Positions 15,242 through 35,165 of a stretch of DNA of 64,000 nt are shown piece after piece (positions within the stretch are counted from its first letter, which is position 1; the number at the start of each line of letters is the position of its first letter). The stretch covers positions 1 through 64,000 of the forward strand of contig JBDKTA010000008.1 of assembly GCA_039680605.1 (NCBI GenBank). Direction: 5' to 3'. The notes under the pieces were generated by a model. That model was not told the DNA's origin and did not search any database. It was given only the letters and a program-made list of their open reading frames with translations. This DNA is from Planctomycetaceae bacterium (GTDB lineage Bacteria > Planctomycetota > Phycisphaerae > SM23-33). Made by a program: the position numbers and the translations under genes.

Positions 15242-16049
15242 CAGCAAGAGCGGCAGCATTCCAGAGTTCATGATCCAGGCCGGGCAGCATCAACTGGACA
15301 AGTTCAAGCTGGTGAGCAAAGACCTGCGAACGGCCTTCACGCCTGGCAACATCGACAAGGCTGTGATGATCGTCAACTACATTCACCAGTCGATCCAGGA
15401 CATGAGCCTCAGTGGGGGCATCATGGCCGGAGAGTTCCTCGTCAGCCTGAAGATCAGCCTCACCACTCACGGAGAGTGGATGAAGTTCTGCAGCGAAAGA
15501 TTCCCGACCATATCGCACCGAACCATCAACCGATGGATGCAGCGGTACCTGATCTCCTCGGGTGAGAAGAAGCCCAAGGAACTGCCGGCCATCAGCGACG
15601 ACGACGCCGACGATGTGGAACTTCTCGACGCCATGATGAACCCCAAGTCCGAACAGGACGACAAGCTCCCCCGCGCCGCCCTGGTCGATCACAACAAGAA
15701 ACTCCGCAAGGGCATCGAGAAGGGGCAGGAGCAACTGGCGGCCCTCAGCGAGCAGGTTGCCGAACTGACTCGGAAGCTTGAGCAGGCGCAGCAGGGCTAC
15801 CAGATCCCCGAGCACGTCAAAGACGAGACGCTGCGCGTGGAGCATCTGCGAAACCAGTTCTGGGGATTCGTCAAGGCCTGGAAGTACGCCCTGCCCCGCA
15901 AGGCAGACCTCATCAAGCTTCACTCCGCGCTTTATTCCGAACTCAGGGATGAGATGAACGACCTGTGGATCAACCACTTCGGGGACTTCGTGCAGGAAGT
16001 CGTCGACAACGAGCTTGTTGCCAAAGCCAAGAAGGCGCGTAAGGAATAA
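15222..16049 (+). CDS. DUF3102-like early protein
   Basis: 275 residues; of two adjacent ATGs I chose the second because GGAGAAG is then at normal spacing. Residues about 60-95 (AGEFLVSLKISLTTHGEWMK followed by TISHRTINRWMQ) match the pattern of DUF3102/plasmid-type proteins, in which a cell-size 'hGEW' helix precedes an HTH. A coiled coil follows (LRKGIEKGQEQLAALSEQVA). It lies 1 base upstream of the transposase gene and under the palindrome, so it may regulate or assist transposition. Function is inference. Confidence 0.6.
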   Translation: MARKASDSKSGSIPEFMIQAGQHQLDKFKLVSKDLRTAFTPGNIDKAVMIVNYIHQSIQDMSLSGGIMAGEFLVSLKISLTTHGEWMKFCSERFPTISHRTINRWMQRYLISSGEKKPKELPAISDDDADDVELLDAMMNPKSEQDDKLPRAALVDHNKKLRKGIEKGQEQLAALSEQVAELTRKLEQAQQGYQIPEHVKDETLRVEHLRNQFWGFVKAWKYALPRKADLIKLHSALYSELRDEMNDLWINHFGDFVQEVVDNELVAKAKKARKE

Positions 16050-16050
16050 C

Positions 16051-17694
16051 GTGGCTATCGATCCGGTCATCATAGTCGAGATGGTTGCCCGCCTGGCGAC
16101 CTGCGCCCGCCGCAGCGAACGCGGCGACGTGGTGTCGTACTACGCGCGGCTGTGCGGCGTGACGGCCGCCACGATGCGACGCGCCGCCGCCAATGCCGGG
16201 GCGTCCTTCGGCTACAAACAGCGGGCCGACAAGGGCGTCGTCAAAGACGCCGATCGCGCTGCGGCCTGCGAGGCCGTCGCCAACATCATCATCAAGTCAG
16301 GCGGCCGGATGCCCGCGTGGGTCGCCATCGACCGCGCTATCCAGATCGGCGTTCTTGGACCGGAGTTCGGCCTCAAGCCTCACCACGTGCAGCGGCACAT
16401 GAGGATGCTCAAGGCCGGCGGAGTCGAGGCCGTCGAGGCCTCAGGACCCAAGAGCAGCCGCGTGATCAACTGGGGCGCTGTCGGCCACGTGCTGCAGATG
16501 GACTCGACCAACTGCAGCCAGTGGTTCTTCACCGAGCCCACCGGCGAAATCCGCTACACGCGGCGGGGCGAAGTCTACCGCAACAAGCCTGCAAAGACCC
16601 CTCCGGTCATCCGCTACGCCGCCATCGATCCCCCCAGCGGCATGTTCCGCGTCCGCTACTACCAGACGGCCGGTGAGTCTGCCGACATCACGCTGCAGTT
16701 CCTGTACTTCGCGATGACGCCCTCGGCCCTGGGCGACCGGCTGCCCATGGCAGGCCAGCCCGACGTGCTCGTGCTGGACAAGGGGCCCGGCAACAAGTCC
16801 TCGGCCGTGCTGAACGTCTGCCAGGCCCTGGGCATCGAGCATCGCACCCACGCCGCCGGCCACTCATGGGCCAAGGGGCACGTCGAGGGCCTCATGCGGC
16901 TGTGGGAGCAGTTCTTTGAATCGGAGCTCATGCTCTGGCCGGCAAAGAGCCTGGACGAACTCAACGAGCGGGCAGAGCTCTACAACGCCCGCTTCTGCCA
17001 GACCCGAATTTTCACCCGCACCAAGTCCACGCGAACGGCCCACTACGCCGCCAACCGCACGGCCATCGTCCTGCCGCCGGCGTGGGATGTGTTCGTCGAG
17101 ATGGCGACCTCCACCCGCGAGACCCGCAGCGTCGCCGGCGGGCACCTGATTTCCTATGAGGGTCATGAGTATTACGTAGGCACGTTGCAGGGCCTGGCTA
17201 CCGGCGACAGCGTCGAGGTCGCCAAGGCGGTCCTGGAATGGGACGAGCAGACCCGCCCGGTGAGGATCTATCACGACGGCCAGATGATCATCGAACGCGC
17301 CCAGGTCAAAGACGCCTCGGGCGTCTACGCCGATCACCGCGTGTACGAGAAACGCAGCGACGCGATCCTTGAAGCGGCGGCGCAAGATCGCGAGCTTCGC
17401 CTGGCCAAGCCCGTTCCGCCGCTACCCCAAGCGGACATCGAATCGATCAAGCCCATGCCCGTGGCGGCCGGGCATCGGCCGGCCGTCATGCGGCCCGCCC
17501 AGCCGGTGCGGATGTACGCACGCACCGACGCGCTATTGAAGCTCTCCGACAAGATCGGCCGCGAGCTGACCCGCTTCGACGTGCACGGCCTGGGCTGGGG
17601 CGAGAGCGTGTCTGCGGCGCAGATCGCGGCGGCCGTTGCCGACCTGTCCCGCGGGGCCGACAAGGGCGAAGGCCGCAACGTCGCTGCAGGATAG
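16051..17694 (+). CDS. Mu-type DDE transposase (MuA-like)
   Basis: 547 residues, starting at GTG 16051 with AAGGAAT upstream. The catalytic triad is Asp151 (VLQMDSTN), Asp243 (LVLDKGPGN) and Glu279 (KGHVEGLM), with exactly 35 residues between the second Asp and the Glu, the DD35E signature of the integrase/transposase core. An N-terminal DNA-binding part (residues 1-120) and a C-terminal beta domain plus tail that could contact the ATPase are present. Known role of the family: joining phage ends to target DNA in integration and replicative transposition. The next gene encodes its MuB-like partner. Confidence 0.92.
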   Translation: MAIDPVIIVEMVARLATCARRSERGDVVSYYARLCGVTAATMRRAAANAGASFGYKQRADKGVVKDADRAAACEAVANIIIKSGGRMPAWVAIDRAIQIGVLGPEFGLKPHHVQRHMRMLKAGGVEAVEASGPKSSRVINWGAVGHVLQMDSTNCSQWFFTEPTGEIRYTRRGEVYRNKPAKTPPVIRYAAIDPPSGMFRVRYYQTAGESADITLQFLYFAMTPSALGDRLPMAGQPDVLVLDKGPGNKSSAVLNVCQALGIEHRTHAAGHSWAKGHVEGLMRLWEQFFESELMLWPAKSLDELNERAELYNARFCQTRIFTRTKSTRTAHYAANRTAIVLPPAWDVFVEMATSTRETRSVAGGHLISYEGHEYYVGTLQGLATGDSVEVAKAVLEWDEQTRPVRIYHDGQMIIERAQVKDASGVYADHRVYEKRSDAILEAAAQDRELRLAKPVPPLPQADIESIKPMPVAAGHRPAVMRPAQPVRMYARTDALLKLSDKIGRELTRFDVHGLGWGESVSAAQIAAAVADLSRGADKGEGRNVAAG

Positions 17695-17711
17695 TCCCTG
17701 GAAAAAGAGTC

Positions 17712-17729
17712 GGGCGGTGAGTGCCGCCC
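17712..17729 (+). other. Hairpin between transposase and ATPase genes
   Basis: GGGCGG (17712-17717) pairs with CCGCCC (17724-17729) around TGAGTG. It shares its GAGTG loop with the two stop-codon hairpins after the HTH genes. It may set the transposase to ATPase ratio; no T tract follows. Confidence 0.5.
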
Positions 17730-17773
17730 GTGAACGCTGGAAGTTTTTGACCGTTAACACGAGGAGTCGAACG

Positions 17774-18637
17774 ATGGACCTGAATCGCAAGTGCAAGGAT
17801 TTCTGGGGCCTCAACCCCGCCGCCACGCCATTCGGCAAGCACATGGAAGACGAAGGCGGCATGTTCGTCTGGCCTGCTTTTGAAGACGTAGTCGAAAAGA
17901 TCGTCCACGTCATCAAGCACCGCTCGTTTCTGGTGATGAGCGGCGAGGCCTGCAGCTGCAAGACGGCCGCGTGGAGCCACGCCAAGCGGCTGCTGGTCGA
18001 GGAGAGCATCGCCCCCAAGTTCTCCCAGCCGATGGGGCTCAATCCCAGCAAGTACAACGAGAGCACGATCTATCACGCCATCGTCTACTCGATCGCGCCT
18101 CCGGACGGATCGGCACAGTCGGCCTTCAAGCGCACGCGCGAGGACCGGGCGCACCAGTGCCGCCAATTGCTGGAGGCCCAGAACGCCCGCCAGGTGCCCG
18201 TGGTGCTGGCCGTCAATGATGCACACGACTGCCAGCTTGCCTTCCTGAAAATGTGCAAGCGGCTCTGGGACGATCTGTACGGATTCGACCGGCTGCTGAG
18301 CGTGATCCTGATCGGCCATCCGTCGCTGCTGGCCATGGCCCGCTCGTGCAAGGAAATCGACGAACGCATGGAGATCGTCGAAATGCCCGACCTGGGCGAC
18401 TCGCTTGAGGATTATCTGGCATTCGAGTTCAACCGCTGCGGCAGCGAGTCGATGCCCATCACGCCAGACGGCGTTGCCCGCCTGGGCAGCATCGTCAAGC
18501 GCCACCCGCTGCTGATCAACAACGTCGTCAGCCGCGCGCTGTTCGAGGGCTTCCGGATCAAGGCCGACGCCATCGACGCCCGCCTGATCGAACGCGCCGC
18601 CAGCGCCGAACGCGGGGCCGAAGGCGGTGCAAAATGA
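17774..18637 (+). CDS. MuB-like AAA+ ATPase
   Basis: 287 residues from an ATG after GAGGAGTCGA. Walker A is GEACSCKT (Gly57 to Thr64); the Walker B-like segment is VVLAVNDAHDC. The layout resembles ExeA/MuB/TnsC-type ATPases that bind DNA, select target sites and activate the transposase. It directly follows the transposase gene, as MuB follows MuA. C-terminal helices (SLEDYLAFEFNRCGSE onward) form the AAA lid. The next gene overlaps as ATGA. Confidence 0.88.
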   Translation: MDLNRKCKDFWGLNPAATPFGKHMEDEGGMFVWPAFEDVVEKIVHVIKHRSFLVMSGEACSCKTAAWSHAKRLLVEESIAPKFSQPMGLNPSKYNESTIYHAIVYSIAPPDGSAQSAFKRTREDRAHQCRQLLEAQNARQVPVVLAVNDAHDCQLAFLKMCKRLWDDLYGFDRLLSVILIGHPSLLAMARSCKEIDERMEIVEMPDLGDSLEDYLAFEFNRCGSESMPITPDGVARLGSIVKRHPLLINNVVSRALFEGFRIKADAIDARLIERAASAERGAEGGAK

Positions 18638-19545: not shown

Positions 19546-20169
19546 ATGGTTAAGAGCAACAAGATCTCGCCGGAAGAACTGGACCGAAGGGCAGACAGCG
19601 TGCTTCGCTGCCTGCAGGAAAACCCCGGACTCTCAGCCGCCGACATCGGCCGGCGCCTCGGGGACGTGTCTGGAAGGCAGGTGCGCGAGCGGATCCACAA
19701 CCTGCGCGATCGCGGCCACGCCATCACCATCGCCGAGAATGGCAAAGGCTACATCCTGCTGGACCGGGTCGAAAGCGAGCAGCGCCGGGCATCCCTGGTC
19801 AAGGCCCACCGCAGCCGCACCCGCTGCTACCTCAGCGACCATGCCAAGCTGATGACGCAGATCACCGGCATGTCGGCCACGGCCGTGGCGGAACTGACAA
19901 TGTTCGACCAGCTCATCAGCGTAGCCGACGAGGAGGCCGACGCCGACCGCCCGAGCACCTGGGCCGAAATCGCCAAGCTGCCGGTGGAGCGGAGAACGGG
20001 CCTGTTCTCCCTGCTGCGGCGCATGCTCGTCGGCATCAAGGAAGACCCGGTCGCCTTCGCCGCCGAACGCACCTGCCTGGCCGATGAGTTCGGGGCGATC
20101 TTCCTGACCAAGGCCGACAAGGCCAATCTCGACAAGGCCCGCCAACTCCTGCAGGAAATTGGCGCGTAA
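19546..20169 (+). CDS. Winged-helix protein
   Basis: 207 residues after GGAGTCGA. Residues 15-70 form an HTH_11-type winged helix (PGLSAADIGRRLGDVSGRQV, then RERIHNLRDRGHAITI and GYILLD). The C-terminal 130 residues are helical and unknown (LISVADEEADADRPSTWAEI). It lies between the sigma factor and the tRNA. Likely an early regulator; could also bind replication or transposition sites. Confidence 0.65.
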   Translation: MVKSNKISPEELDRRADSVLRCLQENPGLSAADIGRRLGDVSGRQVRERIHNLRDRGHAITIAENGKGYILLDRVESEQRRASLVKAHRSRTRCYLSDHAKLMTQITGMSATAVAELTMFDQLISVADEEADADRPSTWAEIAKLPVERRTGLFSLLRRMLVGIKEDPVAFAAERTCLADEFGAIFLTKADKANLDKARQLLQEIGA

Positions 20170-20180
20170 CGATGGAACGT

Positions 20181-20259
20181 GCAGCGGTAGCTCAGATGGC
20201 AGAGCAGACGGCCAGTGCACATGGACCGTTGGTCGCAGGTTCGAGTCCTGCCCGCTGCA
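20181..20259 (+). tRNA. tRNA-like gene, anticodon GCA, with extended anticodon arm
   Basis: 79 bases. Acceptor GCAGCGG/CCGCTGC (7 bp), T8-A9, D arm GCTC-AGATGGCA-GAGC with A14, G18G19 and A21, T arm GCAGG-TTCGAGT-CCTGC, G15 to C48 pair and discriminator A are all normal. The anticodon arm is not: GACGGCCA pairs with TGGACCGTT as eight base pairs plus one bulged A, closing a seven-base loop GTGCACA. U33 is in place and the central triplet is GCA (Cys), but position 37 is C and the discriminator is A rather than the U usual for tRNA-Cys. CCA is not encoded. It could be a functional tRNA, or a decoy. Confidence 0.75.
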
Positions 20260-20281: not shown

Positions 20282-20701
20282 ATGACCATTACAGAACGAA
20301 AGCTTTGGGAATACCACGTCAGGCACTACGGAGAGGGCGTCAATGTCCCAAAGACGGTCAGGAAGTTCATGGAGGAAGTTGGTGAGCTCTGCGAGGCCAT
20401 CATCGTCGGCAAGAAGCTGGACATCATGGAAGAGCTCGGCGACGCGGCAACCGTTCTCTTTGTCCTGTCTGTCGGCCTTGGATTTGATGGCCTTGAGCAT
20501 GTCATGCGTTCGACCGCCGCCAAGCTCGAAGATCGCGATAATCCTGCAGCGCCGCATGACGACCAACAGGAGTGGCGCAACACATCTTTTGCCAATTGCA
20601 GTCACGTCCACTCTGAGCCCGCAGGAACGTGCAGCAAGGGCATAATGCCACGATTCCATTGCCTTGATTGCGGCCTGTACTTTCTGACCGTTGAGAGATG
20701 A
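20282..20701 (+). CDS. MazG-like nucleotide pyrophosphohydrolase with Cys/His tail
   Basis: 139 residues after AAGGAGTCGATGAG. Residues 20-60 show the all-alpha NTP-PPase pattern KFMEEVGELCEAIIVGKKLD and IMEELGDAATVL, with the E-E-x-x-E and E-E-L-x-D metal ligands. Known MazG-type enzymes hydrolyse NTPs or ppGpp-like nucleotides; phages use them to adjust host nucleotide or stress state. The C-terminal 45 residues (FANCSHVHSE, GTCSKG, FHCLDCGLYF) carry a Cys/His set that could form a zinc ribbon, not part of the usual domain. Confidence 0.75.
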   Translation: MTITERKLWEYHVRHYGEGVNVPKTVRKFMEEVGELCEAIIVGKKLDIMEELGDAATVLFVLSVGLGFDGLEHVMRSTAAKLEDRDNPAAPHDDQQEWRNTSFANCSHVHSEPAGTCSKGIMPRFHCLDCGLYFLTVER

Positions 20702-21162: not shown

Positions 21163-21396
21163 ATGATCGTAGAAGCAACCTATTCCGGCAAAGGGCTCAA
21201 GATCTACTTGACGGTACCCGAGGCGCAGCGCCTGCTGACCATCGTCGCCCGAGGCAACGCCCTGGACGCCTTCGGCCATAAGTTCCGCCTGGACCTGCTG
21301 CCTCGCGTCAGCCAGTTCGCCTGGGGCGACCGTGACACCTGGCACAAGATTAAAGGCGCCCTCGACGCCGACACCCAGATCGGGGGCGGATCATGA
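21163..21396 (+). CDS. Small hypothetical early protein
   Basis: 77 residues; begins MIVEATYSGKGLKIYLTVPE and ends GALDADTQIGGGS. Mixed alpha/beta. The stop overlaps the next ATG as ATGA. No family recognised. Confidence 0.55.
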   Translation: MIVEATYSGKGLKIYLTVPEAQRLLTIVARGNALDAFGHKFRLDLLPRVSQFAWGDRDTWHKIKGALDADTQIGGGS

Positions 21397-21644: not shown

Positions 21645-21922
21645 CGATGCTCTTTGAACTGCCCAAGAAGGCATACCGACTCAGGTGCACGCGGCCAGTC
21701 CGTGCTGCGTTCATTGATAATCCAAACAAGAGCGACAACGGATTAGGCGCACTCAGGGAATTGCTTTCTGACCAGATCAGGGAGGTTCGTGAGACCGGCT
21801 GGGTGACCTGTCCGTGCGGGCGCACGCTGCACCTGATGATGGCCTACAAGTGCCTCTACTGCGGCCTGTGGTTCTGCAAGGAATGTGCAACCCGCCACTT
21901 CGGCCCGGAGCAAACAGCATGA
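21641..21922 (+). CDS. Small zinc-ribbon early protein
   Basis: 93 residues, overlapping both neighbours as ATGA. The C-terminal 35 residues hold CPCGRTLHL, then CLYCGLWFCKECATRHFG: at least three Cys pairs, consistent with one or two zinc sites. Likely a nucleic-acid or protein binding accessory; it is co-translated with the DNA methyltransferase gene. Confidence 0.6.
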   Translation: MTMLFELPKKAYRLRCTRPVRAAFIDNPNKSDNGLGALRELLSDQIREVRETGWVTCPCGRTLHLMMAYKCLYCGLWFCKECATRHFGPEQTA

Positions 21923-22833
21923 AGACTATCGACGCTATTGATCTTTGCTGCGGGGGGGGGGGATGGGCCGTGGCAGCACGCGGCCTTGGCATCAACATTG
22001 TGGCAGCCGTGGACCTCTGGAGGCCAGCCTGCATGACGTACCAAATCAATAACCCACGGACAACAGTCATCAACGGCGACCTGAGAGACGCAGCCCTTCA
22101 GCGCAGGGTGATCGATGACTACTCAGGAAAGGTCCAGCTTATCCTTGGCGGCATTCCATGCGAGTGGCTGTCCATCCGGCGCAACGTCGGGAACGGCGTC
22201 GGCGATGAGGAGTTAGAACAGCAGAGGGCGACTCTCAATAGCGTTCTCGATCTTGTTGCCGCGATAGGTCCTCAGTGGTACTGCCTGGAAGATGTCAAGG
22301 GCCTTGCAAAGGAACTTCCGGCCGGAACTCCGTGGATTGAAATCGACGCTGCAGCGTATTCTCCCCAGCGCCGCAAACGAATCTACGTCGGCAATTTCCC
22401 CCGTCCGACAGGAGTTGGACCGCTTCTTGAGCCAGAGTCGAAAGAGGTCCTGAAAGACCGCCTTCGTGCTGGTCCATTCAGGATCGGTGCCAGGTCGCAT
22501 GGCCGCGAGTTTGTAACCAGCAACGCCTTCAGCCCGGACAAAGCCTATGTCGCTCCGGTCGAAGGCAAGTCACCTACCATTTGCACTCTGACCTCAAGGC
22601 ATGATCCTGAGTTCCTGGTCTACGATGAGCGGCTGCCTGGCGGCGTGAGGCAACTGGAGTGGCAGGAAGCTGCGCGTCTTCAGGGTTTCCCCGAAGACTA
22701 CATGTTCTTTGGATCCCCGACTGACGTTGGTACCCAGATCGGCAGGGCTGTGCAGATCGACACGGCGCGGGTGATTCTGAGCGGGATAGCTAAAGAAGCC
22801 GGATGCCTCTCAAGCGATGGAGTAATGCAATGA
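21919..22833 (+). CDS. DNA C5-cytosine methyltransferase
   Basis: 304 residues. Motif I is DLCCGGGGW, motif IV is GGIPCEWLS with the catalytic Cys81, motif VI is LEDVKG, motif VIII is SPQRRKRIYVG, and motif X-like GTQIGRAVQ is near the end. The enzyme would methylate a specific DNA site at cytosine C5; in phages this protects against host restriction. No cognate restriction gene is beside it. The motif I Gly codons contain ten consecutive G bases (21953-21962), an obvious slippage site. The PC motif with E-D-V instead of E-N-V is a small deviation. Confidence 0.9.
   Translation: MKTIDAIDLCCGGGGWAVAARGLGINIVAAVDLWRPACMTYQINNPRTTVINGDLRDAALQRRVIDDYSGKVQLILGGIPCEWLSIRRNVGNGVGDEELEQQRATLNSVLDLVAAIGPQWYCLEDVKGLAKELPAGTPWIEIDAAAYSPQRRKRIYVGNFPRPTGVGPLLEPESKEVLKDRLRAGPFRIGARSHGREFVTSNAFSPDKAYVAPVEGKSPTICTLTSRHDPEFLVYDERLPGGVRQLEWQEAARLQGFPEDYMFFGSPTDVGTQIGRAVQIDTARVILSGIAKEAGCLSSDGVMQ
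21953..21962 (+). repeat. G10 homopolymer in methyltransferase motif I
   Basis: Ten G residues encode the Gly stretch of motif I near codon 12. A one-base change would frameshift and inactivate the enzyme. The frame is intact as read here. Confidence 0.85.
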
Positions 22834-23393
22834 ACGCCACCCAGCGACTCCAGCAGTACGGCCGGATCCACAAGGCCAAGAAGAACCTCGGCCTGGACGA
22901 CGCCGCGTATCGCCAACTGCTCACGTCACTGACCGGAGTCGACAGTTGCAAGGCGATGACCGACCGCCAGGTCAACCACGCTCTGGACTGGCTTAACTAC
23001 TTCGCCGGCGTCCGGTACAAAATGCCAACGCCGTTCGGCCGCGTGGGTGCCTCAGGAGACGCCAAGGCCAACCTCGTGGCCCTGTGCTACGCCATAGCCC
23101 ACATCGTGCCGCCTGGGTGGACCAAGCCGCCGCTGAGGTCCATGCAGTGGCAAGAGCGGACGTGCGGCCGCTGCTCGCCGGCGTTCGAGGACATGGAGAT
23201 TGAGGACCTCACGAAGCTGATCGAGGGCGTCAAGGCCATCTTCTACCGCATGGGCCTCAGGTCAAATGTGCCGCTTGCCACTGACGTGAAACTTGACAGG
23301 AACGGCCGTCTTTACCAGCCGTGGCACGAGCCACTGCCGACAAGACAGCAGTCAGACTCCAGCCGTTCAGGAGACGCCGCCAGTGCGGGCTGA
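22830..23393 (+). CDS. GemA/gp16-like (DUF1018) phage protein
   Basis: 187 residues; ATGA overlap with the methyltransferase. The N-terminus RLQQYGRIHKAKKNLGLDDA followed by YRQLLTSLTGVDSCKAMTDR is characteristic of the Mu gp16/GemA family, which in Mu affects host gene expression and DNA supercoiling. Residues 90-140 contain a second helical domain seen in longer family members (MQWQERTCGRCSPAFEDMEI, IEGVKAIFYRMG). It is the last gene before the host flank. Confidence 0.8.
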   Translation: MNATQRLQQYGRIHKAKKNLGLDDAAYRQLLTSLTGVDSCKAMTDRQVNHALDWLNYFAGVRYKMPTPFGRVGASGDAKANLVALCYAIAHIVPPGWTKPPLRSMQWQERTCGRCSPAFEDMEIEDLTKLIEGVKAIFYRMGLRSNVPLATDVKLDRNGRLYQPWHEPLPTRQQSDSSRSGDAASAG

Positions 23394-35021: not shown

Positions 35022-35165
35022 GGGTCGCTCCGGAAAACACTGTTTCCCGGACGGTGGCCCGACCGCCCGCCAAACCTGCGACAGCCCGCGCCGCCGCACC
35101 CTTTTTAAAACGTCATTTCATTATATCGATCGCCCGGCCAAAAGCCATCTTTCTCCGACAGCGCG

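Follow-up and report, generated by a model that had tools for sequence, protein, structure and literature searches.

A Mu-like transposable prophage in a planctomycete genome encodes a phage tRNA mimic, in which a complete tRNA body bears an anticodon arm that departs from the canonical form; the mimic is well supported, and this RNA probably does not decode. The gene lies in an accessory block of the early region, and its phage relatives have covarying acceptor and T stems, hypervariable anticodon arms and, as a class, have lost U33. We tentatively favour the view that the RNA would be matured by the host, would act through its top half and, as a decoy or sponge, most likely would compete for those host proteins by which tRNA acceptor ends are recognised. 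The gene is found in the window, by which we mean the whole stretch of 64,000 nucleotides analysed, and its features are as follows.

16015-17694, plus strand: MuA-like DDE transposase gene (phrog_310 transposase, E 5.5e-33; 55% identical relative in genome G028)
17636-18637, plus strand: MuB-like AAA ATPase gene (AAA_22, 2.9e-8; phrog_296 DNA transposition protein)
19549-20169, plus strand: winged-helix/HTH protein gene, ending 11 bases upstream of the tRNA-like gene (homologue in G028)
20181-20259, plus strand: tRNA-like RNA gene, from position 1 to discriminator A73, with no encoded CCA (Rfam tRNA, ARAGORN, minimum free energy fold)
20181-20187, plus strand: acceptor stem 5' strand GCAGCGG, partner of 20252-20258 (sequence, fold)
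20190-20205, plus strand: D arm GCTC AGATGGCA GAGC (sequence, Rfam alignment)
20207-20230, plus strand: non-canonical anticodon arm (sequence, fold, shuffles), with stem 20207-20214 paired to 20222-20224 and 20226-20230, bulged A at 20225 and loop GTGCACA at 20215-20221
20235-20251, plus strand: T arm GCAGG TTCGAGT CCTGC (sequence, fold)
20252-20258, plus strand: acceptor stem 3' strand CCGCTGC (sequence, fold)
20282-20701, plus strand: MazG-like pyrophosphohydrolase gene of the accessory block (MazG, 2.9e-7; absent from the sister prophage)
21163-21396, plus strand: conserved small early gene, where synteny with G028 resumes (tblastn 49% identity, E 5e-20)
22803-23393, plus strand: GemA (Mu gp16-like) gene, right part of the early region (GemA, 3e-7; 54% identity in G028)

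An earlier note on this DNA had described a tRNA body with a seven-pair acceptor stem, D and T arms, U8, A14 and G18G19, and sequence, Rfam alignment and fold reproduce this description exactly. The acceptor stem forms 7/7 pairs and the T stem 5/5; U8A9 follows the acceptor, the D arm reads GCUC-AGAUGGCA-GAGC in the RNA and is followed by A26, the variable loop is GGUC and the T arm is GCAGG-UUCGAGU-CCUGC. The Rfam tRNA model matches from end to end with 52.8 bits (E 1.7e-8, gathering score 29) and is the best match of its clan, by which tmRNA and tRNA-Sec were rejected. The unconstrained minimum free energy fold is a cloverleaf (-36.1 kcal/mol, z -2.1). The anticodon arm, GACGGCCA-GUGCACA-UGG[A]CCGUU, has eight pairs, one of them G-U, a bulged A and a seven-base loop with central GCA, a reading that was likewise borne out by the sequence and the minimum free energy fold. 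When folded alone the arm gives a z of -2.4, with 7 of 200 shuffles equally stable, and it may alternatively be read as the usual five-pair stem with a 14-base loop (CCAGUGCACAUGGA). The Rfam alignment places an anticodon loop insert of 13 bases, the usual number being 6.

ARAGORN labels the gene as tRNA-Cys(gca). The identity of tRNA-Cys lies in U73 together with the GCA anticodon. Compared with such a tRNA, the window RNA has the body and differs in lacking both the five-pair stem with seven-base loop and U73. A73 and C37, by which it had been judged unfit as tRNA-Cys, are both present in the sequence, and the host genome (G000, a planctomycete MAG of 5.2 Mb with 50 tRNA matches) has a normal tRNA-Cys(gca) (L023). 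The broader claim, of a phage tRNA body whose non-canonical arm makes it an improbable decoder as tRNA-Cys, is supported. The closest body to the window RNA is that of planctomycete tRNA-Arg(UCU), so the ARAGORN label tells little about origin.

The gene sits in the early operon of the prophage, in an accessory block with the MazG-like gene. The structural genes, with terminase-, portal- and capsid-like ORFs, lie leftward on the minus strand, and the plus strand carries in order MuA, the MuB-like ATPase, a sigma-like protein, the HTH protein, the tRNA-like gene, MazG, small ORFs, a DNA cytosine methyltransferase and GemA. An AAGGAG motif lies about 8 bases past the 3' end of the tRNA-like gene, ahead of mazG. 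A role in integration as an attP sequence was rejected, the phage being of MuA type. In host DNA of the window there is also an nhaA-I riboswitch candidate (35049-35101, minus strand, 42.4 bits).

Only one related prophage was found, in G028, which is 1 of 397 genomes of the taxonomic class beside the window's own and has a MuA 55% identical. Its contig C47 ends inside the HTH gene and contig C221 continues the prophage, in which the HTH gene is followed by 183 bp, the homologue of the window gene at 21163 and then directly by gemA. This sister prophage has no tRNA-like gene, mazG or methyltransferase at the syntenic site, and the distance from the end of the HTH gene to the 21163 gene is 994 bp in the window versus 183 bp in G028; thus the window gene belongs to an accessory block. 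The phage cytosine methyltransferase (21919-22830) forms a second accessory block that G028 does not have. The neighbours in the accessory blocks resemble phage genes that act against host defences (methyltransferase) or on nucleotide pools (MazG). No relative of the window MuA or of its HTH gene was found in the viral contigs, no relative locus besides that of G028 in the GTDB contigs, and no match in phage or plasmid DNA. As no syntenic homologue of the window arm appeared in the collections searched, its eight-pair form is a single instance.

The body of the window RNA recurs in another genome of the taxonomic class, G061, where a gene with acceptor GCAGCGG and almost the same D and T arms has an 11-pair arm whose sequence is quite unlike that of the window. 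The region is probably an integrated element, phage or other, because an integrase gene abutting tRNA-Arg lies about 1.6 kb away. Another odd-armed tRNA-like gene, G061:C7:21407-21486 (L242), is found in this same planctomycete genome (that of L041).

Much closer comparisons are possible in Mu-like phages of Bacteroidales, to which the window phage does not belong. Five contigs of the odd-armed class are Mu-like phages with a tRNA-like gene near MuA. Between L076 and L124/L225 the MuA proteins are 93% identical, the flanks largely identical and the acceptor stem the same, whereas the anticodon arms are unrelated and differ in length. The series was extended to relatives of the L076-type MuA, with transposases 76-100% identical, and of the 12 loci, beside L076, for which the region upstream of MuA is available, 11 have a tRNA-like gene in it; in L236 none was seen upstream of MuA. 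One member, L227, has an 8-base loop, and the syntenic site of L233, L234 and L237 holds CAT tRNAs that are normal or almost so; this locus also tolerates an ordinary tRNA. In an alignment of the top halves of 12 sequences the acceptor and T pairs are formed in 144/144 cells, with double-sided changes at 9 of the 12 pairs and a covariation score reached by 0 of 500 shuffles. The mean pairwise identity of the arms is 49%, versus 46% for shuffled arms and 73% for the bodies, and the arm is therefore not conserved between syntenic relatives. The earlier note had implied a conserved eight-pair architecture; related phages instead replace the arm, and it is the acceptor and T stems that covary. In these phages (L076, L225, L226, L229, L230, L232 and L233) the tRNA-like gene is preceded, at a distance of a few bases, by a covarying hairpin with a conserved ACCGGCYG-type loop, which was not found by eye in the window phage.

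Another Mu-like copy is that of the Bacteroides Hankyphage p00 (BK010646.1, 1767-1849; L243), located upstream of MuA and scoring 46.7 bits as a tRNA. Its fold is a cloverleaf in which the arm consists of two helices and lacks a normal anticodon loop. Most records leave the gene unannotated, and in some ARAGORN labels it as tRNA-Arg. The architecture of the arm is retained in diverged Hankyphages, where the substitutions comprise a double and a single compensating change and leave one pair broken, a hint that the arm may be held in shape within this lineage. In the Mu-like Porphyromonas phage007a (L245, 2774-2844) the corresponding position upstream of MuA is also occupied by a tRNA-like gene, whose anticodon arm looks shortened and not extended.

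For a broader view of the class, viral contigs were searched for D and T arms of a tRNA lying further apart than normal, and genes with a canonical anticodon arm plus a long variable arm were removed from the set. One pattern matched 39 viral contigs and a looser one at least 120, these and the frequencies given below being pattern-limited samples and not a census. About 100 distinct anticodon arms on tRNA bodies were obtained, unrelated to each other and mostly extended. Their seven-pair acceptor stems are paired in 649/700 cells versus 366 +/- 11 in shuffled sets, and the outer three pairs of the T stem, left free by the search pattern, in 297/300 versus 172 +/- 6. C or T occupies position 48, the partner of G15, in 93 of the class. 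On the other hand, U33 is at chance level (22/101 when counted from the 5' side, 16-19/101 from the 3' side). Since independent phages show an equal departure from the canonical arm, a sequence error is not a credible explanation of the class. An intron within a tRNA was also rejected, as U33 is lost and the arms of the class are irreducible to a canonical loop, and in the window the insert of 7 bases is far too short for a group I intron. Alanine charging through G3:U70 is not a common rule, that pair being present in only 13/100 of the class, and the window has A3-U70.

Regarding its distribution, one exact D arm is associated with odd arms in 5/28 viral contigs, a count that leaves out L071, which has a canonical arm and a longer variable loop; for the D arm of the window itself 6/9 viral contigs are odd, all six being of one lineage. 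Nearly all matches in 100 genomes of the window's taxonomic class are normally spaced, and the three odd ones among the matches listed are the window and two in G061. With the long-spacing pattern the window was the sole match in 392 genomes of the phylum. For 65/100 genes of the class there is no other tRNA within 2 kb in the contig sequence examined, and no partner protein is shared beside them, the best-shared PHROG among the top families of neighbours occurring in 3/64. ARAGORN called 52/100 of the class, with scattered anticodons or none, and missed 48/100.

Some groups deserve separate mention. Ten contigs (L112, L154, L161, L167, L181, L188, L190, L192, L196 and L068) form a subfamily with inserts of 52-57 bases and a common internal motif like CTCATGGTNAAGGRCC, for which an Rfam search of L161 and L181 matched no family; the L181 gene stands within an array of about 13 tRNAs. 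A phage lineage (L122, L145, L147, L149 and L172) shares the odd arm ACTGGCGCGCGCAYAACAAGTACAG and may be a second conserved subfamily. In L033 a zinc-ribbon ORF (569-805), located between the small and large terminase genes, runs in frame through the tRNA-like gene, as also occurs in the related contigs L031, L032, L035 and L037, and this stretch may serve as both RNA and protein. Type II-like tRNAs with a canonical arm, loop CTTATAC (anticodon TAT) and a long variable arm are common in phages (L098, L100, L103, L106, L110, L119, L130, L132, L133, L137, L148, L157, L176, L182 and L191).

Conserved acceptor and T stems with a free arm are what would be expected of an RNA made for proteins that handle tRNA ends, and not for the decoding site of the ribosome. 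In the mechanism that we propose, the tRNA-like RNA would be transcribed within the early accessory region of the prophage, and then excised and matured by the host tRNA enzymes through RNase P, 3' processing and CCA addition, with the tRNA body keeping it stable. It would act via the acceptor/T top half and not by codon reading, as a decoy or sponge for host proteins recognising the acceptor end, for instance defence effectors directed against tRNA ends; besides such effectors, RNase P, 3' nucleases, the CCA-adding enzyme and EF-Tu are candidates for recognising it. The anticodon arm would thus be free, or even pushed, to diverge. For this role the RNA must be abundant. A decoy or regulatory mimic had been proposed before, and either role is possible for the window RNA, although the decoy idea is better not tied to anticodon nucleases: mimicry of their substrate would need a seven-base loop and U33, neither of which is constant in the class, and what the class keeps is the acceptor/T half.

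The place of the gene, 11 bases past the HTH gene and just ahead of the mazG ribosome-binding site, would also suit an operon processing element, at which RNase P and 3' tRNA nucleases cut the early mRNA, separating cistrons and setting their stability (tRNA punctuation). Such an element would need conservation in the top half alone, the arm being irrelevant; indeed, the constraint is on the top half with none on the arm, and the Bacteroidales Mu-like copies sit in the leader before MuA, after the covarying hairpin. However, the sister prophage does without the gene, the downstream genes vary widely between phages, and the retained D arm and C/T48 partner of G15 go beyond the expected needs of a bare RNase P substrate. 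We regard this explanation as rather unlikely; the accessory position, early operon and rapid turnover of the arm fit counter-defence better than an essential processing signal.

The arm itself may have some role of its own, because four to five pairs at its base are kept in about half of the class (49/101 versus 15 expected) and the arms fold better than their shuffles (mean z -1.4). The RNA could be a natural tRNA scaffold, in which the body stabilises and the variable arm, chosen afresh in each phage, is active as an aptamer or antisense RNA. The architecture is that of the engineered tRNA scaffold (PMC3753655), which retains the acceptor, T and D arms of a tRNA, has its anticodon arm replaced by a foreign hairpin and is matured by host enzymes, although that scaffold is man-made and no natural class is described there. 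The folding of the arms, the architecture kept by the Hankyphage variants and the subfamily with a shared internal motif all agree with this possibility. Nevertheless, recognisable relatives exist for just 16/101 arms, and complementarity between arm and carrier locus, covering a few kb on each side of the gene at 125 loci, is not above that of shuffles (mean excess 0.005 nt), by which an antisense or guide arm was rejected. We consider a scaffold doubtful as the main explanation, although processing and scaffold functions are both conceivable besides counter-defence.

It is improbable that the gene is a decayed, functionless tRNA-Arg(UCU), captured by the phage and deprived of its anticodon arm. 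The body is indeed nearest to planctomycete tRNA-Arg(UCU) and the gene is single-copy, but every other helix is perfect, the acceptor and T stems of the class are maintained by compensatory change, and among the Mu-like phages whose MuA is 76-100% identical, the gene has stayed at one locus while arm similarity is at the random level. Least probable is an unusual tRNA that still decodes, the longer stem being tolerated and GCA or a shifted triplet being read: the eight-pair reading does give a seven-base loop with U33 and central GCA, but A73 replaces U73, C37 is present, the stem exceeds the usual length by three pairs, a normal tRNA-Cys is encoded by the host and U33 has been lost in the class.

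Several known systems resemble the window RNA in part. YrlA, a Y RNA of bacteria and phages, mimics a tRNA body; however, the window RNA scores 15.5 bits against RF02553 (E 3.2), far below the gathering score of 69, and a Ro60/TROVE gene was found neither among the window neighbours nor in the top 25 families of class neighbours, so this identity was rejected. tRNA-Sec and allo-tRNAs decode and have a regular anticodon loop. They are similar in that their stem lengths depart from the canonical, but the window matches the Rfam tRNA model and not tRNA-Sec. Defence-evading phage tRNAs reportedly decode and have canonical arms with base changes in the loop, unlike the remodelled arm of the window and the loss of U33 in the class. 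The evasion by phage tRNAs of tRNA-targeting defence (van den Berg 2023, PMC10264068) and their action against retrons (PMC11555353) provide a parallel, as these are also phage genes that differ from host tRNAs at the anticodon region and have a proposed counter-defence role. Temperate phages may carry tRNA genes in tRNA-dependent lysogeny or at attP (PMC10865867; phage L, PMC8022706), but those serve integration into tRNA genes, and here a tRNA-like gene lies inside the early operon of a prophage with a MuA-type transposase. No matching description of the class was found in the open-access literature; subscription papers and preprints were outside this search, and an earlier description is possible.

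Why phages carry tRNA genes is a question that is decades old. According to our data, a fraction of the phage "tRNA genes" appears to be non-decoding, yet with acceptor and T stems under clear selection, and annotation hides such genes, since ARAGORN gives them arbitrary anticodons or none and misses many. Hankyphage is a cultured gut phage with public RNA-seq (PMC12135933), and its copy makes the existence, processing and function of these RNAs testable. It is possible, although we hold it with less confidence than the reading of the window gene itself, that they are a widespread, unnamed class of counter-defence RNAs of diverse phages, whose acceptor/T half would bait host proteins that attack or sense tRNA ends and whose arms would diversify so fast that even near-identical phages no longer share similar arm sequences. 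If they are decoys, defences that target tRNA ends would be a broad pressure on phages. Moreover, the occurrence of similar RNAs with differing odd arms in many phages suggests that tRNA bodies are used beyond translation.
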